Positions 1 through 10,160 of a DNA stretch of 50,142 bases are shown piece by piece (within the stretch, counting starts at the first letter, position 1; each line of letters begins with the position of its first letter). Source of the stretch: Anaerolineales bacterium (GTDB lineage Bacteria; Chloroflexota; Anaerolineae; Anaerolineales; RBG-16-64-43); assembly GCA_016928575.1 (NCBI GenBank), contig JAFGKK010000023.1, positions 1 to 50,142 on the forward strand, given 5' to 3'. A program made the translations under genes and the position numbers. A model generated the notes under the pieces. That model saw nothing but the letters and a program-made list of their open reading frames with translations. It made no database searches and was not told where the DNA came from.

Positions 1-90
<90 letters not shown>

Positions 91-1589: not shown

Positions 1590-1618
1590 TTGACGGGACA
1601 TGCATGCGGAATTACCAT
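1590..1618 (+). promoter_or_regulatory. Candidate promoter for the plus-strand TPR pair
   Basis: TTGACG (1590-1595) and TACCAT (1613-1618) are separated by 17 bases, just upstream of the ribosome-binding site AAGGGA and the ATG at 1636. With the minus-strand box at 1552-1557 it makes the 91-base gap a compact divergent promoter region. The -10 matches consensus at only four of six positions. Confidence 0.4.
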
Positions 1619-1635
1619 CTTTAAGGGAAATCGCC

Positions 1636-2871
1636 ATGTACCTTCACACCAGCAAGTACAAAATCAAACGGAAAAAGCCGTCTCGGTTTAATCTGGCTTT
1701 AATTTTCACCCTGTGCCTTCTGATCGTCGGCGCTGCGATCGTCCAAGCATACGTCGTTCCCCGGGTTCCGCCGCTGTTTCTTCCGACCCCCACCGCCACC
1801 CGCCCGGCCGCCTCCTACGCCGAGGATGCCGCGGCGATGTTCATGGAAGGCAAGCTGGAATCGTCGATTGCGCTTTATCAGCAGTCGATTCTGCTCGCAC
1901 CCACCAACAGCGAGCTCTACGTCGCCCTTTCGCGGGTGCAGGTGTTCGCGCACGATTACCAGGGGGCGGTCGAAAACGCCCAATACGCCGTTTTGCTTTC
2001 CAAAAGCGCGATGAGCTACGCGGTGTGGGGCGAAGCGATTCACCGCCTGGAGGCGGAAAACGACCTGCCCGCCTACGAGAATGCCGTCAAGCAGCTGCGC
2101 AAGAGCCTCGAACTCGAACCCAATCTGGCCTTGGCCCACGCCTATCTGGCGGAAGTGCTGATGGACACGGACTGGCAGTACTACGAAGACGCCTCGGCGG
2201 CGGCCCGCACCGCCATCGTCCAGAAACCGGATTTGATGGAAAGCCACCGGGCGATGGGATACGTCTACCTGATGACCGGCAATTACAGCGAGGCGCTGGA
2301 CGAATACCAAAAAGCCATCGACCTGCACAATAAGCTGGCGGATCTCTGGCTGCGGCTTGGCCAGTGTTACCAGGCGGTCAACGATCCGGGAGAGGCGATC
2401 GACGCCTACCTCAAGGCGTCGACGCTCGATTCGAAAAGCCCCGATCCCTTCGTGTTTATTTCGCGGACGTACGCCGGGCAGGGCGAATTCGGAAAGGCCG
2501 CCCAGTACGCCGAGATGGCGGTCGCCCTTGCCCCGCTCAATCCCAGCTACCACGGCCTGTTGGGCGTGATGTATTACCGCAACCGCCGCTATCAGGAAGC
2601 CATCCCGGAATTGAGCTTGGCGATCGCGGGCGGAACCATCAACACCGGCACCGAAACCGGGACCGTCGTCGGATTGCCACTCGGCGATTGGCCGGTTTCG
2701 GAGTATTACTGGACCTACGGTCTGGCGCTGGCGAAGGTCGGGCGCTGCGCCGAAGCCATCCCCGTGTTCCGCCTGCTCGAGCAGCAAAGGCCGGACGACG
2801 AGATCGCCATGGAAAACGTCGCCGAGGGGTTGACGCTCTGCAAAGCGGACACGCCCCAGCCTTCGGCGTAG
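1636..2871 (+). CDS. Membrane-anchored tetratricopeptide-repeat protein
   Basis: A 411-residue protein with a Lys-rich cytoplasmic tail, a membrane segment at about residues 18-39, a short Pro/Thr linker (PTPTATRP) and then TPR helices to near the end. Repeat signatures such as ALDEYQKAIDLHNKLADLW and AIDAYLKASTLDSKSPDPF are clear. TPR arrays bind partner proteins or peptides; here the array would face outward from the cytoplasmic membrane. The ATG at 1636 is preceded by AAGGGA at suitable spacing, so it is preferred over the ATG at 1600. It is followed after 12 bases by another gene of the same design, which suggests a two-gene operon. The partner is unknown. Confidence 0.88.
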   Translation: MYLHTSKYKIKRKKPSRFNLALIFTLCLLIVGAAIVQAYVVPRVPPLFLPTPTATRPAASYAEDAAAMFMEGKLESSIALYQQSILLAPTNSELYVALSRVQVFAHDYQGAVENAQYAVLLSKSAMSYAVWGEAIHRLEAENDLPAYENAVKQLRKSLELEPNLALAHAYLAEVLMDTDWQYYEDASAAARTAIVQKPDLMESHRAMGYVYLMTGNYSEALDEYQKAIDLHNKLADLWLRLGQCYQAVNDPGEAIDAYLKASTLDSKSPDPFVFISRTYAGQGEFGKAAQYAEMAVALAPLNPSYHGLLGVMYYRNRRYQEAIPELSLAIAGGTINTGTETGTVVGLPLGDWPVSEYYWTYGLALAKVGRCAEAIPVFRLLEQQRPDDEIAMENVAEGLTLCKADTPQPSA

Positions 2872-2883
2872 AGGCCGGATCCC

Positions 2884-4395
2884 ATGGAATTGCGCGGAAG
2901 CCGCTTCGATCCGGCCGCCGAACCCCCCCGTTTGACTCTGGCGAGAACCGCCGCATACGCCGCCGTGATCCTGGTTCTCCTGGGCGTGTATCGGCTGCTG
3001 GATCACGGCATCCTCCGCTCGCCCTTTGCCCCGCCGCCCACCCCGACCCGCATGGCCCTTTCCTTCGCCGAAGAAGGGAAAGCGTTCTTCGAAGCGGGGA
3101 TCCTCGACAAGGCGATCGAGGCCTATCAAAAGGCGGTGGCGGTGGACCCGCGGAATCCGGAATTGTGGGCGGAACTGGCGCGCATCCAAACTTATTCCAG
3201 CGAGTTGATGCTGTCGGCGGAGCAGAAGGAACAGCGGTTGAAGGAGGCGAAGGCCTCAATCGAAACGTCGATTTGCCCCGACGAAGCCTTCGGCCGGCTG
3301 TCCTTGGAGGAGCGGCGAAGCCGGCTGCAGGAGACCAAGGAAAGCATCGCCGCTTTGCTTCTCTCCGACGAAACGGTCGCCGCCCTCTCCCCCGCAGAAC
3401 AGCGCGACCGTTTGCAGGAAGCCCAGAATCCCCTGGATCCCATGGTCTATTGCGATCCGGATTTCGCAGAAGGTTACGCGATCCGGACTTTGGTTCTGGA
3501 TTGGTATGCCAACACGGAATGGATGGACTCGGAAACCCGCGACCGGACGCTGGCCGAAGCCTATCAGGCTTCGGCGAAAGCCCTCCTGCTGGATCCCAGC
3601 AACGCGCTTGCCCTTGCCTTCCGCGCCGAAGTCCTCGTCGACCAAGCCAACTGGTCGGCCGCCCTCGATGTGGGCGCGCAGGCGGCCGCCCTCGGCCCGG
3701 AGGTGATGGACGTCCACCGGGCCTACGCCTATGTGCTCGAAAGCAACGGCTACTACGAACGCGCGGTAACGGAATACCTGGAAGCCATCCGCCTGAACTC
3801 CAACCTGCCCTTCCTCTACATCCGGCTGGGCGCCAATTACCGCAAGCTGGGGGAGATCGCAACCGATCCGGGGTCCCGCGACGCGATGATCGAAAAAGCC
3901 ATCGAGGCCTTCGCCCGGGCGGCGGATCTGAATCCGAAGGATCCGATTCCCTACCTTTCGATCGCCCAAACCTACGCCAACCAGGGGGATTTCTTCGCGG
4001 CCGAGCGCAACGCGCAGAAAGCCCTCTCGCTGGACAACACCGATCCGTTTCTTTACGGCCGGCTGGGGGTCATTTATTACAAGGCGAAGAACTACGAGAC
4101 GGCGATAACCGTCCTGCGCTGCGCGATCCGCGGCTGCGCGGCGGAGGATAACGAAGCCGAAGGGGTGGACGTTGTGGAAACGCTGAAGCTCGAGGCCAAC
4201 TCGGTCGACGTGTACTACACCTACGGGTCGGTGCTATCCTTCTACGGCGCAACGGAAGGCAATTGCGCGGAAGCGGCCGCGATTTTCGCCGAGCTGCGCG
4301 CCTCGCCCTACTACGACACGACGGTGGAAACCATCATCCGCGAGGGCGAGGCGATCTGCGCCGCCTTCGCCCGCACCCCGACGCCGAAATCGTAA
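2884..4395 (+). CDS. Membrane-anchored tetratricopeptide-repeat protein, paralogue of the preceding gene
   Basis: A 503-residue protein with the same plan as its upstream neighbour: cytoplasmic N-terminus, membrane segment at about 22-42, a PPPTPT linker, then TPR units (for example AIEAYQKAVAVDPRNPELW and AIEAFARAADLNPKDPIPY). Between residues of about 105 and 190 the repeats are interrupted by a charged Glu/Arg-rich helical region, absent from the neighbour, which may be a coiled coil. The two genes probably arose by duplication and are co-transcribed (12-base gap). No catalytic motif is visible. The gene converges with the RNase J gene, and the 167 bases between them show no clear terminator. 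Confidence 0.88.
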   Translation: MELRGSRFDPAAEPPRLTLARTAAYAAVILVLLGVYRLLDHGILRSPFAPPPTPTRMALSFAEEGKAFFEAGILDKAIEAYQKAVAVDPRNPELWAELARIQTYSSELMLSAEQKEQRLKEAKASIETSICPDEAFGRLSLEERRSRLQETKESIAALLLSDETVAALSPAEQRDRLQEAQNPLDPMVYCDPDFAEGYAIRTLVLDWYANTEWMDSETRDRTLAEAYQASAKALLLDPSNALALAFRAEVLVDQANWSAALDVGAQAAALGPEVMDVHRAYAYVLESNGYYERAVTEYLEAIRLNSNLPFLYIRLGANYRKLGEIATDPGSRDAMIEKAIEAFARAADLNPKDPIPYLSIAQTYANQGDFFAAERNAQKALSLDNTDPFLYGRLGVIYYKAKNYETAITVLRCAIRGCAAEDNEAEGVDVVETLKLEANSVDVYYTYGSVLSFYGATEGNCAEAAAIFAELRASPYYDTTVETIIREGEAICAAFARTPTPKS

Positions 4396-7643: not shown

Positions 7644-8705
7644 TCAAATTTCATCGCCGGTCAACGGATCGACGCCGATGTCGAGCCGGCCAGCGGCCAC
7701 CTCGGCGAGGATTTTTATCAGGTATTCTTGGCGCGCGGCGGAAATCCACTCGTTCGGAAAGGGCGCGTATTCCAGCCCGCCGTTTTCCAGGCTGTAAGGA
7801 ACCGCCTCGGCGAAGGCCTCCCCTCCCAGGAATCGCGGCAGAAGATCTTTCAACAGGATGTCCGGACGGAATGCGATTTCCCCCAGGACGCTTTTCGCGC
7901 CTTCGCGGGTTCCGTTTCCGAAGACGGCCAGGTAGAAATCCGGCCTGGCCCCGGCGATGCGGACCCCGTTCCGCGCCAAATGATGGAGCCCCTCATCCCA
8001 CGCGGTGCCGGGCATGGCCGAGGCGGTGTCGATGTAATTTGTCAGCAGGTCCGCGGCGGCGGTGGTCCCGGCCGAGGGATCCGCGCCCGCGGCGATCTCG
8101 AGAGTGAAGATCCGGCAGCGCGGGCAGAGGTAGCGGACCCCGTGCCGGAAACCGTTGCGGTAGATCTTTCCGCGATCGGTGTTCGCCTCGCCGATCCAAC
8201 CGACGTAATCGTTGCGGTTCTCGATCGTGGCGAGCAGCCCGGCCATGAACGCCGCCTGTTCGCGGCGGAGGTTTTCCCCGCCCACCACCAGCAGATTTGG
8301 AAGCGGCTCGGTTCCGCCCGCCTCGGCGGCTACAAAGCGGATCTCCGGGTGGGCTTGCGCCGCGGAGGCAAGCGCCGGTCCGAGATCGGCCTCGACGACC
8401 GCGGCCAAGCGAAGGCCGCTTGCGCTCCGCCCGCCGAGGATGTCGTCGCCGGGCGTCACGCGCAGGATCTGCCAGCCTTGCTGTGCGGCGAATTCCTCCA
8501 CCGCCTGCGCCGCGCGCTTGCCGGCCTCGGTGGCGAGAGGCTCGGGCGCCATCAACAGCGCAAACGGAGGAGGCGTGGGCGTCGCGCTGGGGACGGCCGG
8601 CTGGGTCGGCATCACGGATGGCGTCGGCGACTCGCCCTGCGAGCAGGCGGCCATCGCAACAAGAAGCATCACGGCGGGGCAGAAAGCCATTTTGCGGCCA
8701 GTCAT
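7644..8705 (-). CDS. BMP-family (basic membrane protein-like) substrate-binding lipoprotein
   Basis: A 353-residue predicted lipoprotein. The N-terminus is a signal peptide ending in the lipobox-like AMAAC (Cys near residue 21), followed by a Thr/Pro linker typical of exported proteins in this genome. The body matches the BMP (Bmp/Med/PnrA) periplasmic-binding fold, including a stretch like NLRREQAAFMAGLLATIENR and a WIGE segment. Family members bind nucleosides and feed an ABC importer, but no permease or ATPase gene is adjacent. An ATG at 8705 and one at 8690 are both possible. TACAAT lies eight bases before 8705 with no Shine-Dalgarno sequence, so the transcript may be leaderless. Confidence 0.82.
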   Translation of the reverse strand: MTGRKMAFCPAVMLLVAMAACSQGESPTPSVMPTQPAVPSATPTPPPFALLMAPEPLATEAGKRAAQAVEEFAAQQGWQILRVTPGDDILGGRSASGLRLAAVVEADLGPALASAAQAHPEIRFVAAEAGGTEPLPNLLVVGGENLRREQAAFMAGLLATIENRNDYVGWIGEANTDRGKIYRNGFRHGVRYLCPRCRIFTLEIAAGADPSAGTTAAADLLTNYIDTASAMPGTAWDEGLHHLARNGVRIAGARPDFYLAVFGNGTREGAKSVLGEIAFRPDILLKDLLPRFLGGEAFAEAVPYSLENGGLEYAPFPNEWISAARQEYLIKILAEVAAGRLDIGVDPLTGDEI

Positions 8706-8857: not shown

Positions 8858-9823
8858 TCACACCGCTTCGATCGTCGACGGCGGCTTGGGGGCGAGGTTG
8901 TAGGTCACGCTGACTACGCCGGGGACTTCCTTGAGGATCGCCTCGGCCAATGTCAACAGCGTTTCGATCGGCAGTTTGGTCGGCGCCGCGGTGCGCGCAT
9001 CCAGGCTGTCCCAGCAGCGGATTTCGATCTGCTGGCCGAACTCGCGCCTGCCCTTGCGCATCCCGGTCACCCGGTCCTGATGCAGGATCGCCAGGTATTG
9101 GAACGCGCCGCTGTCCTTCAGCATCCGCTCGACGACCGCGGTGGCTTTGCGCACGGTCTCGATCCGTTCCGGCGCGGCTTCGCCGATGACCCGCGCCGCG
9201 AGCGCCGGTCCGGGGAAGGGAATCCGATCGAAAGTTTCGGCCGGCAATCCGAGCGCGCGCCCGACCTTGCGCACGCCGTCCTTGCGCAATTGGATCAGCG
9301 GTTCGAGGATCCGGTAGCCGAAGGCTTGCTGCGGATCGATCCCCAGTTGTTCGAAGACGTTGTGCTGGCGCTTGATCCCCGCCACGGTTTCGTCGACGTC
9401 GGTCAGGATCGTTCCCTGCAGGAGGAATTTGGCGCCGCTTTTTTGGACGATCTTGCCGAACACGTTCTTGTAGAAGGTCTGCGTGATCGCCTCGCGCTTC
9501 TGTTCCGGATCGACGACGCCCTTCAGCGCGGCGAAGAACTCCTTGCGGGCGTCGACGACTTCGACCTTAACGCCGAGCTTTTTAAAGGTTGCGGCAACCC
9601 GCTCCGGTTCGTCCCGGCGCATCAGGCCGTTCTGGATAAACACGGTTTTCAATTGCTTTCCAAGCGCCCGGTGCCCGAGCATCGTCACCACCGAGGAATC
9701 CACGCCCCCCGAAAGCGCGTTGATCGCCAGGCCGCTTCCGACGGCGGTTTGGATCTCGGCGACCTTTTGCTCGATGAATTGTTGTTCGTTCAATGATGCG
9801 GCGGCGATCTCCTTGATTTTCAT
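8858..9823 (-). CDS. Stand-alone GMP synthase-like ATP pyrophosphatase subunit
   Basis: A 321-residue protein matching only the C-terminal half of bacterial GuaA, which aminates XMP to GMP after adenylation. The PP-loop SGGVDSS is at residues 38-44, followed by a GTILTD segment, KRQHNV, a dimerisation domain from about 200 and the KPPSTIE tail. The glutamine amidotransferase domain is absent and no candidate for it is adjacent, as in archaeal two-subunit enzymes. Several usually conserved positions differ: PFPGPAL replaces PFPGPGL, RIPF replaces RHPF, and the tail ends KPPSTIEAV instead of KPPATIEWE. The ATG at 9823 has a perfect AGGAGG five bases upstream. It is either a split GuaA subunit or a paralogue with another substrate. 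Confidence 0.85.
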   Translation of the reverse strand: MKIKEIAAASLNEQQFIEQKVAEIQTAVGSGLAINALSGGVDSSVVTMLGHRALGKQLKTVFIQNGLMRRDEPERVAATFKKLGVKVEVVDARKEFFAALKGVVDPEQKREAITQTFYKNVFGKIVQKSGAKFLLQGTILTDVDETVAGIKRQHNVFEQLGIDPQQAFGYRILEPLIQLRKDGVRKVGRALGLPAETFDRIPFPGPALAARVIGEAAPERIETVRKATAVVERMLKDSGAFQYLAILHQDRVTGMRKGRREFGQQIEIRCWDSLDARTAAPTKLPIETLLTLAEAILKEVPGVVSVTYNLAPKPPSTIEAV

Positions 9824-9974
9824 GATTCCTCCTGCATAGAATGGGTTTTAAAAAACCGTTTACCGCGAAGCCCGTCCCCGGTGGGCGGGCCGGGTGACGT
9901 CAAGGGCGCCAAGAAGTAATATAAATATTTTGGCAACTGCTTAGGCAGCTTATTTCGACAGAATAATCTCAGCA

Positions 9975-9992
9975 TAACATCACCGGTGTTAT
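9975..9992. promoter_or_regulatory. Imperfect palindrome upstream of the GMP-synthase-like gene
   Basis: A CACCGGTG core is flanked by ATAAC and TTAT, giving an operator-like dyad about 150 bases upstream of the start at 9823. The surrounding DNA is AT-rich compared with the genes. No known regulator site was recognised. Confidence 0.25.
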
Positions 9993-10000
9993 AGGTTTTG

Positions 10001-10160
10001 TATGTCACCCCGGCGTGGCTCCCCCGCGCCCGCCCTCGCTCCCGCCCTCGCGCCCGCCCTCGCGAAGCGGGGGAAGCGGGGGAAGCAAGGTTCGAAGACG
10101 GGGTCCAGTATTTATTGAAGATTTACTGGATGCCGGCTAATTTCACTCCGGCATGACGAT
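10001..10160. repeat. Dispersed palindromic element with GC-rich 12-mers
   Basis: The segment opens with TCACCCCGGCGTGG, runs through three near-copies of a 12-mer (CGCCCGCCCTCG and variants, 10027-10062), the matching GCGGGGGAAGCGGGGG, and ends with an inverted repeat GATGCCGG...CCGGCATGACG. A similar GTCATGCCCGCG...GGGGATGACG element occurs at 41921-42015. These look like mobile-type intergenic repeats without coding capacity. The rest of the 420-base gap shows no gene. Confidence 0.55.

Follow-up and report, generated by a model that had tools for sequence, protein, structure and literature searches.

A clade of glutaminase-free GMP synthetase-like proteins with fixed active-site changes, spread over bacterial phyla and represented in an Anaerolineales genome

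The stretch of DNA that was analysed here, 50,142 nucleotides from an Anaerolineales bacterium and referred to below as the window, raises the question of what a protein that resembles GMP synthetase (GuaA) but stands alone does in a bacterial cell. A sequence-only reading of the window had noted that only the ATP-pyrophosphatase half of GuaA is encoded, with no amidotransferase partner in the neighbourhood, and had offered either a split GuaA or a paralogue acting on another substrate, such as a modified nucleotide. The description itself was borne out: the gene is intact and carries the ATP-pyrophosphatase and dimerisation parts only (Table 1), no glutaminase was found among the scanned neighbour proteins (window about 0.5-14.5 kb), and the genome search gave no glutaminase-family match on the window's contig. 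The reading frame is uninterrupted and its third-position GC is 0.83, compared to 63.5% GC for the window. When the gene was compared to its ortholog in a congener (G001), there were 31, 18, and 112 differences at codon positions 1, 2, and 3, respectively, and dN and dS were 0.077 and 0.71 by NG86 and 0.075 and 1.21 by YN00. Thus, the gene is genuine and evolves under purifying selection.

Table 1. Positions in the window of the GuaA-like gene and of the sites discussed in the text
Feature	Position	Strand	Residues	Remark or basis
Stand-alone GuaA-like ATP pyrophosphatase	8858..9823	minus	321 aa	ATG start
AGGAGG, probable ribosome-binding site	9828..9833	minus		4 bases 5' of ATG; sequence
PP-loop SGGVDS, ATP/PPi binding	9695..9712	minus	38-43	kept
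Helix with Arg110	9470..9499	minus		Arg110 kept, Thr114 and Tyr118 changed; alignment
Catalytic Asp142/Glu145 and lid IKRQHN for IK(S/T)HHN	9359..9400	minus	lid 150-155	alignment
K-D-G-V-R	9269..9283	minus	181-185	PPi lysine kept; alignment
Base-sandwiching loop PFPGPALAAR	9191..9220	minus	202-211	alignment
GMP_synt_C dimerisation domain, diverged	8867..9106	minus	240-319	
C-terminal loop, end IEAV for IEWE	8861..8911	minus		same length; Lys313 and Glu319 kept; alignment

The protein is over the gathering cut-off of GMP_synt_C (PF00958; 62.3 bits vs 27) and its match to the GuaA C-terminal models covers almost all of each model, but it was below both GuaA equivalog cut-offs, with 286 bits vs 338.75 for TIGR00884 and 270.7 bits vs 400 for NF000848, a model that takes in the glutaminase part which this protein does not have. 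Within its own genome the window gene scored 65.1 bits against GMP_synt_C whereas the canonical copy scored 147.9. By sequence, the closest solved relative is the archaeal B subunit 2dpl (240.4 bits). An AlphaFold model built from an alignment of 8 sequences (pLDDT 81, pTM 0.80; below pLDDT 50 in the lid at 143-155, at 202-205, and in the tail at 314-321) was searched against the PDB, where 2dpl, 3a4i, and 6jp9, all archaeal B subunits, ranked highest by E-value with TMq of 0.75-0.81, followed by other GMP synthetases and then by LarE. A single-sequence model was poor (pLDDT 46) and was left out of the analysis. LarE, the first non-GMP-synthetase in this ranking, shares the PP-loop fold but is a sulfur transferase, and it is only 16-18% identical among the matches listed.

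When the window's own genome and 40 relatives were searched (41 in all), close homologs of this protein were found only in the window genome and the congener, at 87% identity, and the remaining matches were at 46% identity or less. In the class sample the clade was present in 12 of 396 genomes, namely the window genome, ten at 66-78% identity, and one in which the gene is split over two contigs. In a draw of 400 genomes from the phylum the window genome alone passed a cut-off of 1e-75, which makes the clade rare across the phylum as a whole. It is found elsewhere, however: in the class around a Desulfobacteraceae MAG (G441), 44 of 192 genomes carried it at 61-78% identity (E <= 1e-90), and at least 492 loci matched in 84,980 species genomes, a number that may include canonical copies. 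The best 80 of these at least 492 loci were 73-81% identical over the best segment, and all were titled as MAGs; together with the class members they cover 18 named phyla, where ranks follow the submitters' titles, 14 of the 90 rows have no phylum name, and some 'Deltaproteobacteria' seem to have been counted as Myxococcota. Lengths are uniform, with 55 of 92 anchor ORFs at 320 aa; longer ones were taken as 5' extensions (long ones were cut back to 322 aa) and one of 255 aa is cut by a contig end. Relatives were not found in viral contigs. In phage and plasmid records (16 and 300, respectively) all matches were below 60% identity, as fits canonical GuaA; the highest identity among the matches listed (20 of the 300 plasmid rows) was 42%.

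In a tree of 66 rows, comprising 35 of the 90 paralogues, 29 of the 58 canonical rows plus two archaeal B subunits, a branch with SH-aLRT 100 set all 35 paralogues apart from the other rows, and the clustering with archaeal GuaAb that the sequence-only reading had proposed to look for was thus not seen with these two archaeal sequences. In a tree of 90 members (duplicates L045 and L046 left out) the phylum labels needed 34 changes, compared to a minimum of 17 and a shuffled mean of 51.3, which would fit repeated transfer between phyla. When the 90 paralogues were aligned with the 58 canonical and the two archaeal rows (leaving out L055 and L056, in which the gene is split over two contigs, the duplicates L075 and L093, and the canonical L166, for which no frame was found), 29 positions had one residue in at least 90% of the paralogues and a different one in at least 90% of the comparison rows. 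The clade is thus separate, spread over bacterial phyla, and has fixed active-site changes. No description of it was found in the mostly open-access literature, and this clade of about 320-aa proteins is apparently not yet described.

The catalytic core is kept throughout. In the PP-loop SGG(V/I)DS the residues S, G, G, D, and S were each present in 89 of 89 paralogues (one row has no N-terminus), and the variable position was Val in 84 and Ile in 5. Asp142, Glu145, Lys151, His154, Asn155, and Lys181 were kept in 90/90, as were Arg110, Gln242, Arg260, Lys313, Thr317, Glu319, and Arg185, so that each of the XMP-site residues known from M. jannaschii (Arg102, Gln231, Arg249, Lys302, and Glu308) is in place in every member. 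These side-chain contacts have been described in the enzymes of M. jannaschii and T. thermophilus (PMC10526850, PMC11448925), where the counterpart of Arg110, Mj Arg102, contacts O6 of XMP (PMC10526850), the Gln242 site contacts the ribose, and the Arg260 site contacts the phosphate from the other subunit (PMC10526850, PMC11448925).

Around this core the clade has departed from all canonical and archaeal rows. A stronger change than those noted in the sequence-only reading, which did not mention it, is in the lid, where IK(S/T)HHN, given as the invariant lid motif of GMP synthetases (PMC10526850), is replaced by IKRQHN, with Lys, Arg, Gln, His, and Asn each in 90/90; Gln153 thus stands in 90/90 paralogues where His stands in 60/60 canonical and archaeal rows. 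In the loop whose Pro-Gly-Pro stretch is reported to sandwich the base (PMC11448925), Ala207 was found in 90/90 clade members vs Gly in 60/60, so PFPGPAL for PFPGPGL is a true difference, as had been supposed. On the helix that carries Arg110, Thr114 was present in 88/90 paralogues vs Gly in 60/60, and Tyr118 in 90/90 vs Ile in 56 and Met in 4 of 60. The acids of KD(D/E)V are described as facing the glutaminase (PMC10526850); the first, Asp182, was kept in 83/90 paralogues and the second was lost (Gly 78, Ser 6, and Ala 4 of 90), this position being Glu in 60/60 canonical and archaeal rows. Near the C-terminus, Ser305 takes the place of Mj Arg294, the residue of the salt bridge in trans across the dimer, with Ser in 89/90 and Asn in 1/90 vs Arg in 60/60. 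The missing WE end was also confirmed, the last two residues being Ala 85 or Val 5 and then Val 68 or Ile 22 of 90, compared to W-E in 58/58 canonical rows. In M. jannaschii it is the alpha-carboxylate of the last residue that is reported to hold the O6-contacting Arg (PMC10526850), and since the length of the C-terminus is exactly unchanged the terminal Val of the clade could serve in the same way. The contrast of RIPF with RHPF, on the other hand, did not hold up as meaningful because the canonical and archaeal enzymes themselves vary at this site (Gln 40, His 19, and Met 1 of 60). Two of the changes fall on residues at which mutation of the P. falciparum enzyme is reported to be damaging: the Leu mutant of Arg539 (Mj Arg294) lost all activity and the Ala mutant of His388 (here Gln153) had lowered adduct formation (PMC10526850). 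This suggests that the clade may not bind XMP as the kept contacts would lead one to assume.

Carrier genomes were examined for canonical guaA, the check proposed in the sequence-only reading. The window's genome has a full-length guaA on another contig (C15), listed as an ORF of 558 aa that ends in KPPATIEWE, and this gene is also the sole match over cut-off to the GuaA glutaminase family in that genome. The second-best glutaminase match had 106.5 bits against a cut-off of 172.15 and reads as a TrpG-TrpD fusion. The protein is therefore a paralogue and not half of a split GuaA. Canonical guaA was found in 51 of the 59 carriers of the paralogue: in 39 of 46 carriers, G431 and G457 among them showing it only as fragments; in G462, where a 337-aa frame holds the first half and is presumably cut; in G468, as a 646-aa frame; and in 10 of the 13 carriers that belong to the window's class (G000, G001, G082, G068, G423, G280, and G290, and, by the glutaminase part, G047, G189, and G261). 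It was not found in the remaining eight (G443, G445, G450, G460, G465, G205, G251, and G042), which are all drafts. Draft genomes miss genes, and among the window's own genome and its 40 relatives there were likewise 3 that gave no GuaA match. The glutaminase model TIGR00888 was over cut-off in 47 of the 58 other carriers, each time within a frame of at least 337 aa, and hence no stand-alone glutaminase partner was seen; a free-standing GuaA glutaminase over cut-off, the GATase subunit that might have been expected, was found neither in the window's draft genome nor in the 58 other carriers, also drafts. As a separate observation, the 646-aa GMP synthetase frame of G468, a Chitinispirillaceae MAG (L199, G468:C50), has two weak GMP_synt_C stretches and is perhaps like the human monomeric type.

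The explanation that we favour, although we would hold it at even strength with all others taken together, is that the window protein is a paralogue of GMP synthetase that forms a homodimer, has no glutaminase, carries out GuaA-type chemistry in two steps, and has been neofunctionalised. What we infer here is that it dimerises, that it reacts in two steps, where its amine comes from, and that its product or use is other than bulk GMP synthesis. The PP-loop would bind ATP; Asp142, Lys151, and His154 would help to adenylate a ring carbonyl of XMP or of a purine 5'-monophosphate close to it; AMP would then be displaced by free ammonia or a different small amine; and the product, or its use, would differ from bulk GMP synthesis. 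We incline towards a different acceptor or amine, since the canonical enzyme accompanies the paralogue in most carriers and since two of the changed residues are damaging when mutated in known GMP synthetases. A more specific form, that a GuaA-type PP-loop synthetase was retooled for an amine not derived from glutamine or for a purine mononucleotide other than XMP, perhaps together with DUF1846, is held more tentatively. The earlier suggestion of a paralogue with another substrate thus survives in part: a distinct multi-phylum clade with fixed active-site changes speaks for it, but the side-chain contacts to XMP are invariant, and none of the evidence singles out a modified nucleotide. Several findings go against the favoured explanation. 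The changes at the sites of Arg294 and of the lid His, damaging in P. falciparum, may mean that XMP is not bound as assumed; the genes and regulatory elements around the paralogue do not name a pathway; and the lid and C-terminal loop are the low-confidence parts of the model. Asp182 is kept in most members, so that loss of the glutaminase interface is only partly marked, and the eight draft carriers in which canonical guaA was not found would also fit a GMP-synthesising role.

That role is the main rival, possible but in our estimate the less probable, in which the protein is an ammonia-dependent isozyme of GMP synthetase (XMP + NH3 + ATP -> GMP) kept as a back-up or as a copy resistant to glutamine analogues. 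The invariant XMP side-chain contacts and core catalytic residues argue for it, as do the eight carriers just mentioned; the ATPPase subunit of known enzymes is reported to take external ammonia in vitro (PMC10526850), and use of glutamine or of ammonia has a precedent in the NAD synthetase family (PMC3376133). It has to be set against the presence of canonical guaA in 51/59 carriers, the scores under both equivalog cut-offs, and the 29 fixed differences, which include Arg294 to Ser and the lid His to Gln, positions at which the GMP synthetase mutants described lose activity wholly or partly. Resistance to antibiotics directed at GuaA was also considered, and the literature gave no lead to a stand-alone copy.

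No partner gene, operon, or riboswitch that names the pathway was found around the paralogue. BLAST clustering of the ORFs that lie up to 8 kb from 92 anchors, which stand for 90 distinct loci, gave no conserved operon; the largest cluster spans 18 loci at scattered distances, and its representative looks by eye like a sensor protein. A riboswitch at the gene was found neither in the window nor in 34 loci, the sole cis-regulatory match being to a cobalamin riboswitch, which in L101 lies about 4.6 kb away. Pfam was run on 117 of 143 adjacent ORFs, 26 having been left out by eye as likely antisense or for their size and two window entries having been swapped for genes taken to be real. DUF1846 (UPF0371) was the only neighbour that recurred in more than one lineage, whereas the others, 6PGD and PurH (in Planctomycetota), ArgJ, a GH2 glycosidase, and DUF362, recurred in 2-4 loci each.

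It is conceivable, though improbable, that the window protein is a component of a system with DUF1846. This gene adjoins the paralogue in 6 of 90 distinct loci and in two arrangements: divergent in two Hydrogenedentota MAGs (L085 and L100), with about 218 bp between starts, and convergent, 36 bp apart, in four MAGs whose titles give Deltaproteobacteria, Desulfobacterales, or Desulfobacteraceae (L076, L118, L120, and L123), of which L076 and L118 have only the DUF1846 end on the contig. Within each arrangement the organisms are related, so that the divergent pair may go back to one event and the convergent four to another. The window's own genome has a DUF1846 gene (L172, G000:C75:10289-11287), and in its class DUF1846 was found in 3 of 396 genomes, all of them carriers, and in 0 of 384 non-carriers (Fisher p 2e-5; 7e-4 when the window genome is left out). 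For the class of G441, on the other hand, the 44 carriers and the 21 genomes with DUF1846 overlap in just 8 of 192 (p 0.07), and many carriers do not have it: the gene was found in 4 of the 13 that belong to the window's class and in 23 of the 46 others. DUF1846 is an orphan family; a C. difficile member is reported to be essential, with knock-down elongating the cells (PMC12548448), and a pneumococcal one is reported as a hemin binder (PMC9238395). The linkage of paralogue and DUF1846 is a weak lead.

Still less probable is a catalytically dead or regulatory GuaA-like protein that forms, for example, mixed dimers with canonical GuaA. The changes of Arg294 to Ser and of His to Gln, and a dimerisation domain that is present though diverged, would suit such a role, but neither the PP-loop nor the catalytic Asp, Lys, and His vary within the clade and that domain is far from the canonical one, as its score shows. 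Least of all do we expect the split GuaA first proposed, in which the protein would be the ATPPase subunit of a GMP synthetase whose glutaminase subunit is encoded at another locus, as the stand-alone form and the match to 2dpl are outweighed by the full-length guaA in the same genome, the glutaminase searches, the position in the tree, and the lost glutaminase-facing acid.

Compared to known systems, the neofunctionalised paralogue that we favour is like archaeal GuaAb in domain make-up, length class, fold, PP-loop, and XMP contacts; it is unlike it in that no GuaAa partner was found in these draft genomes, in its place outside the archaeal sequences, in the lid and a longer stretch after the lid, in the PGPA loop, in Ser for Arg294, and in having no terminal Glu. 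The ATPPase and dimerisation parts of bacterial GuaA (TIGR00884, NF000848) are matched end to end, but the glutaminase domain is absent. Ammonia-dependent NAD synthetase (NadE) is likewise a PP-loop ATP pyrophosphatase without a glutaminase and, its match being weak, may serve as an analogy only; its acceptor is different and it has no GMP_synt_C domain. Homology annotation likely labels the proteins of the clade as GMP synthase. If the clade makes another product, then its carriers hold a mis-named step of nucleotide chemistry, and the clade is a test case for a glutamine amidotransferase losing its glutaminase; if it was retooled as outlined above, these bacteria would have a nucleotide not yet known in them. 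If instead it is a GMP synthetase that uses ammonia only, glutamine-free guanine synthesis would be a widespread back-up.

Some further observations concern the surroundings of the gene. Downstream of it, a Bmp/PnrA-like protein is encoded on the minus strand (window 7644-8705; match of 20.9 bits vs a cut-off of 24.1), and a similar ORF also lies downstream of the ortholog in the congener (L004). PnrA-type proteins are nucleoside binders. The gap upstream of the gene (9824-10142) contains a short GC-rich near-repeat with GCGAGGGCGGGC-type units. Two adjoining TPR-repeat proteins of 423 and 503 aa are encoded on the plus strand (1600-4395); both seem to begin with a membrane segment and they may be a tandem duplication. 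Finally, the window opens within a 16S rRNA gene, in its 5' end (1-90, minus strand), and the congener's contig (L044, end) also halts there, so that the stretch between the rRNA gene and the window gene may be common to both.
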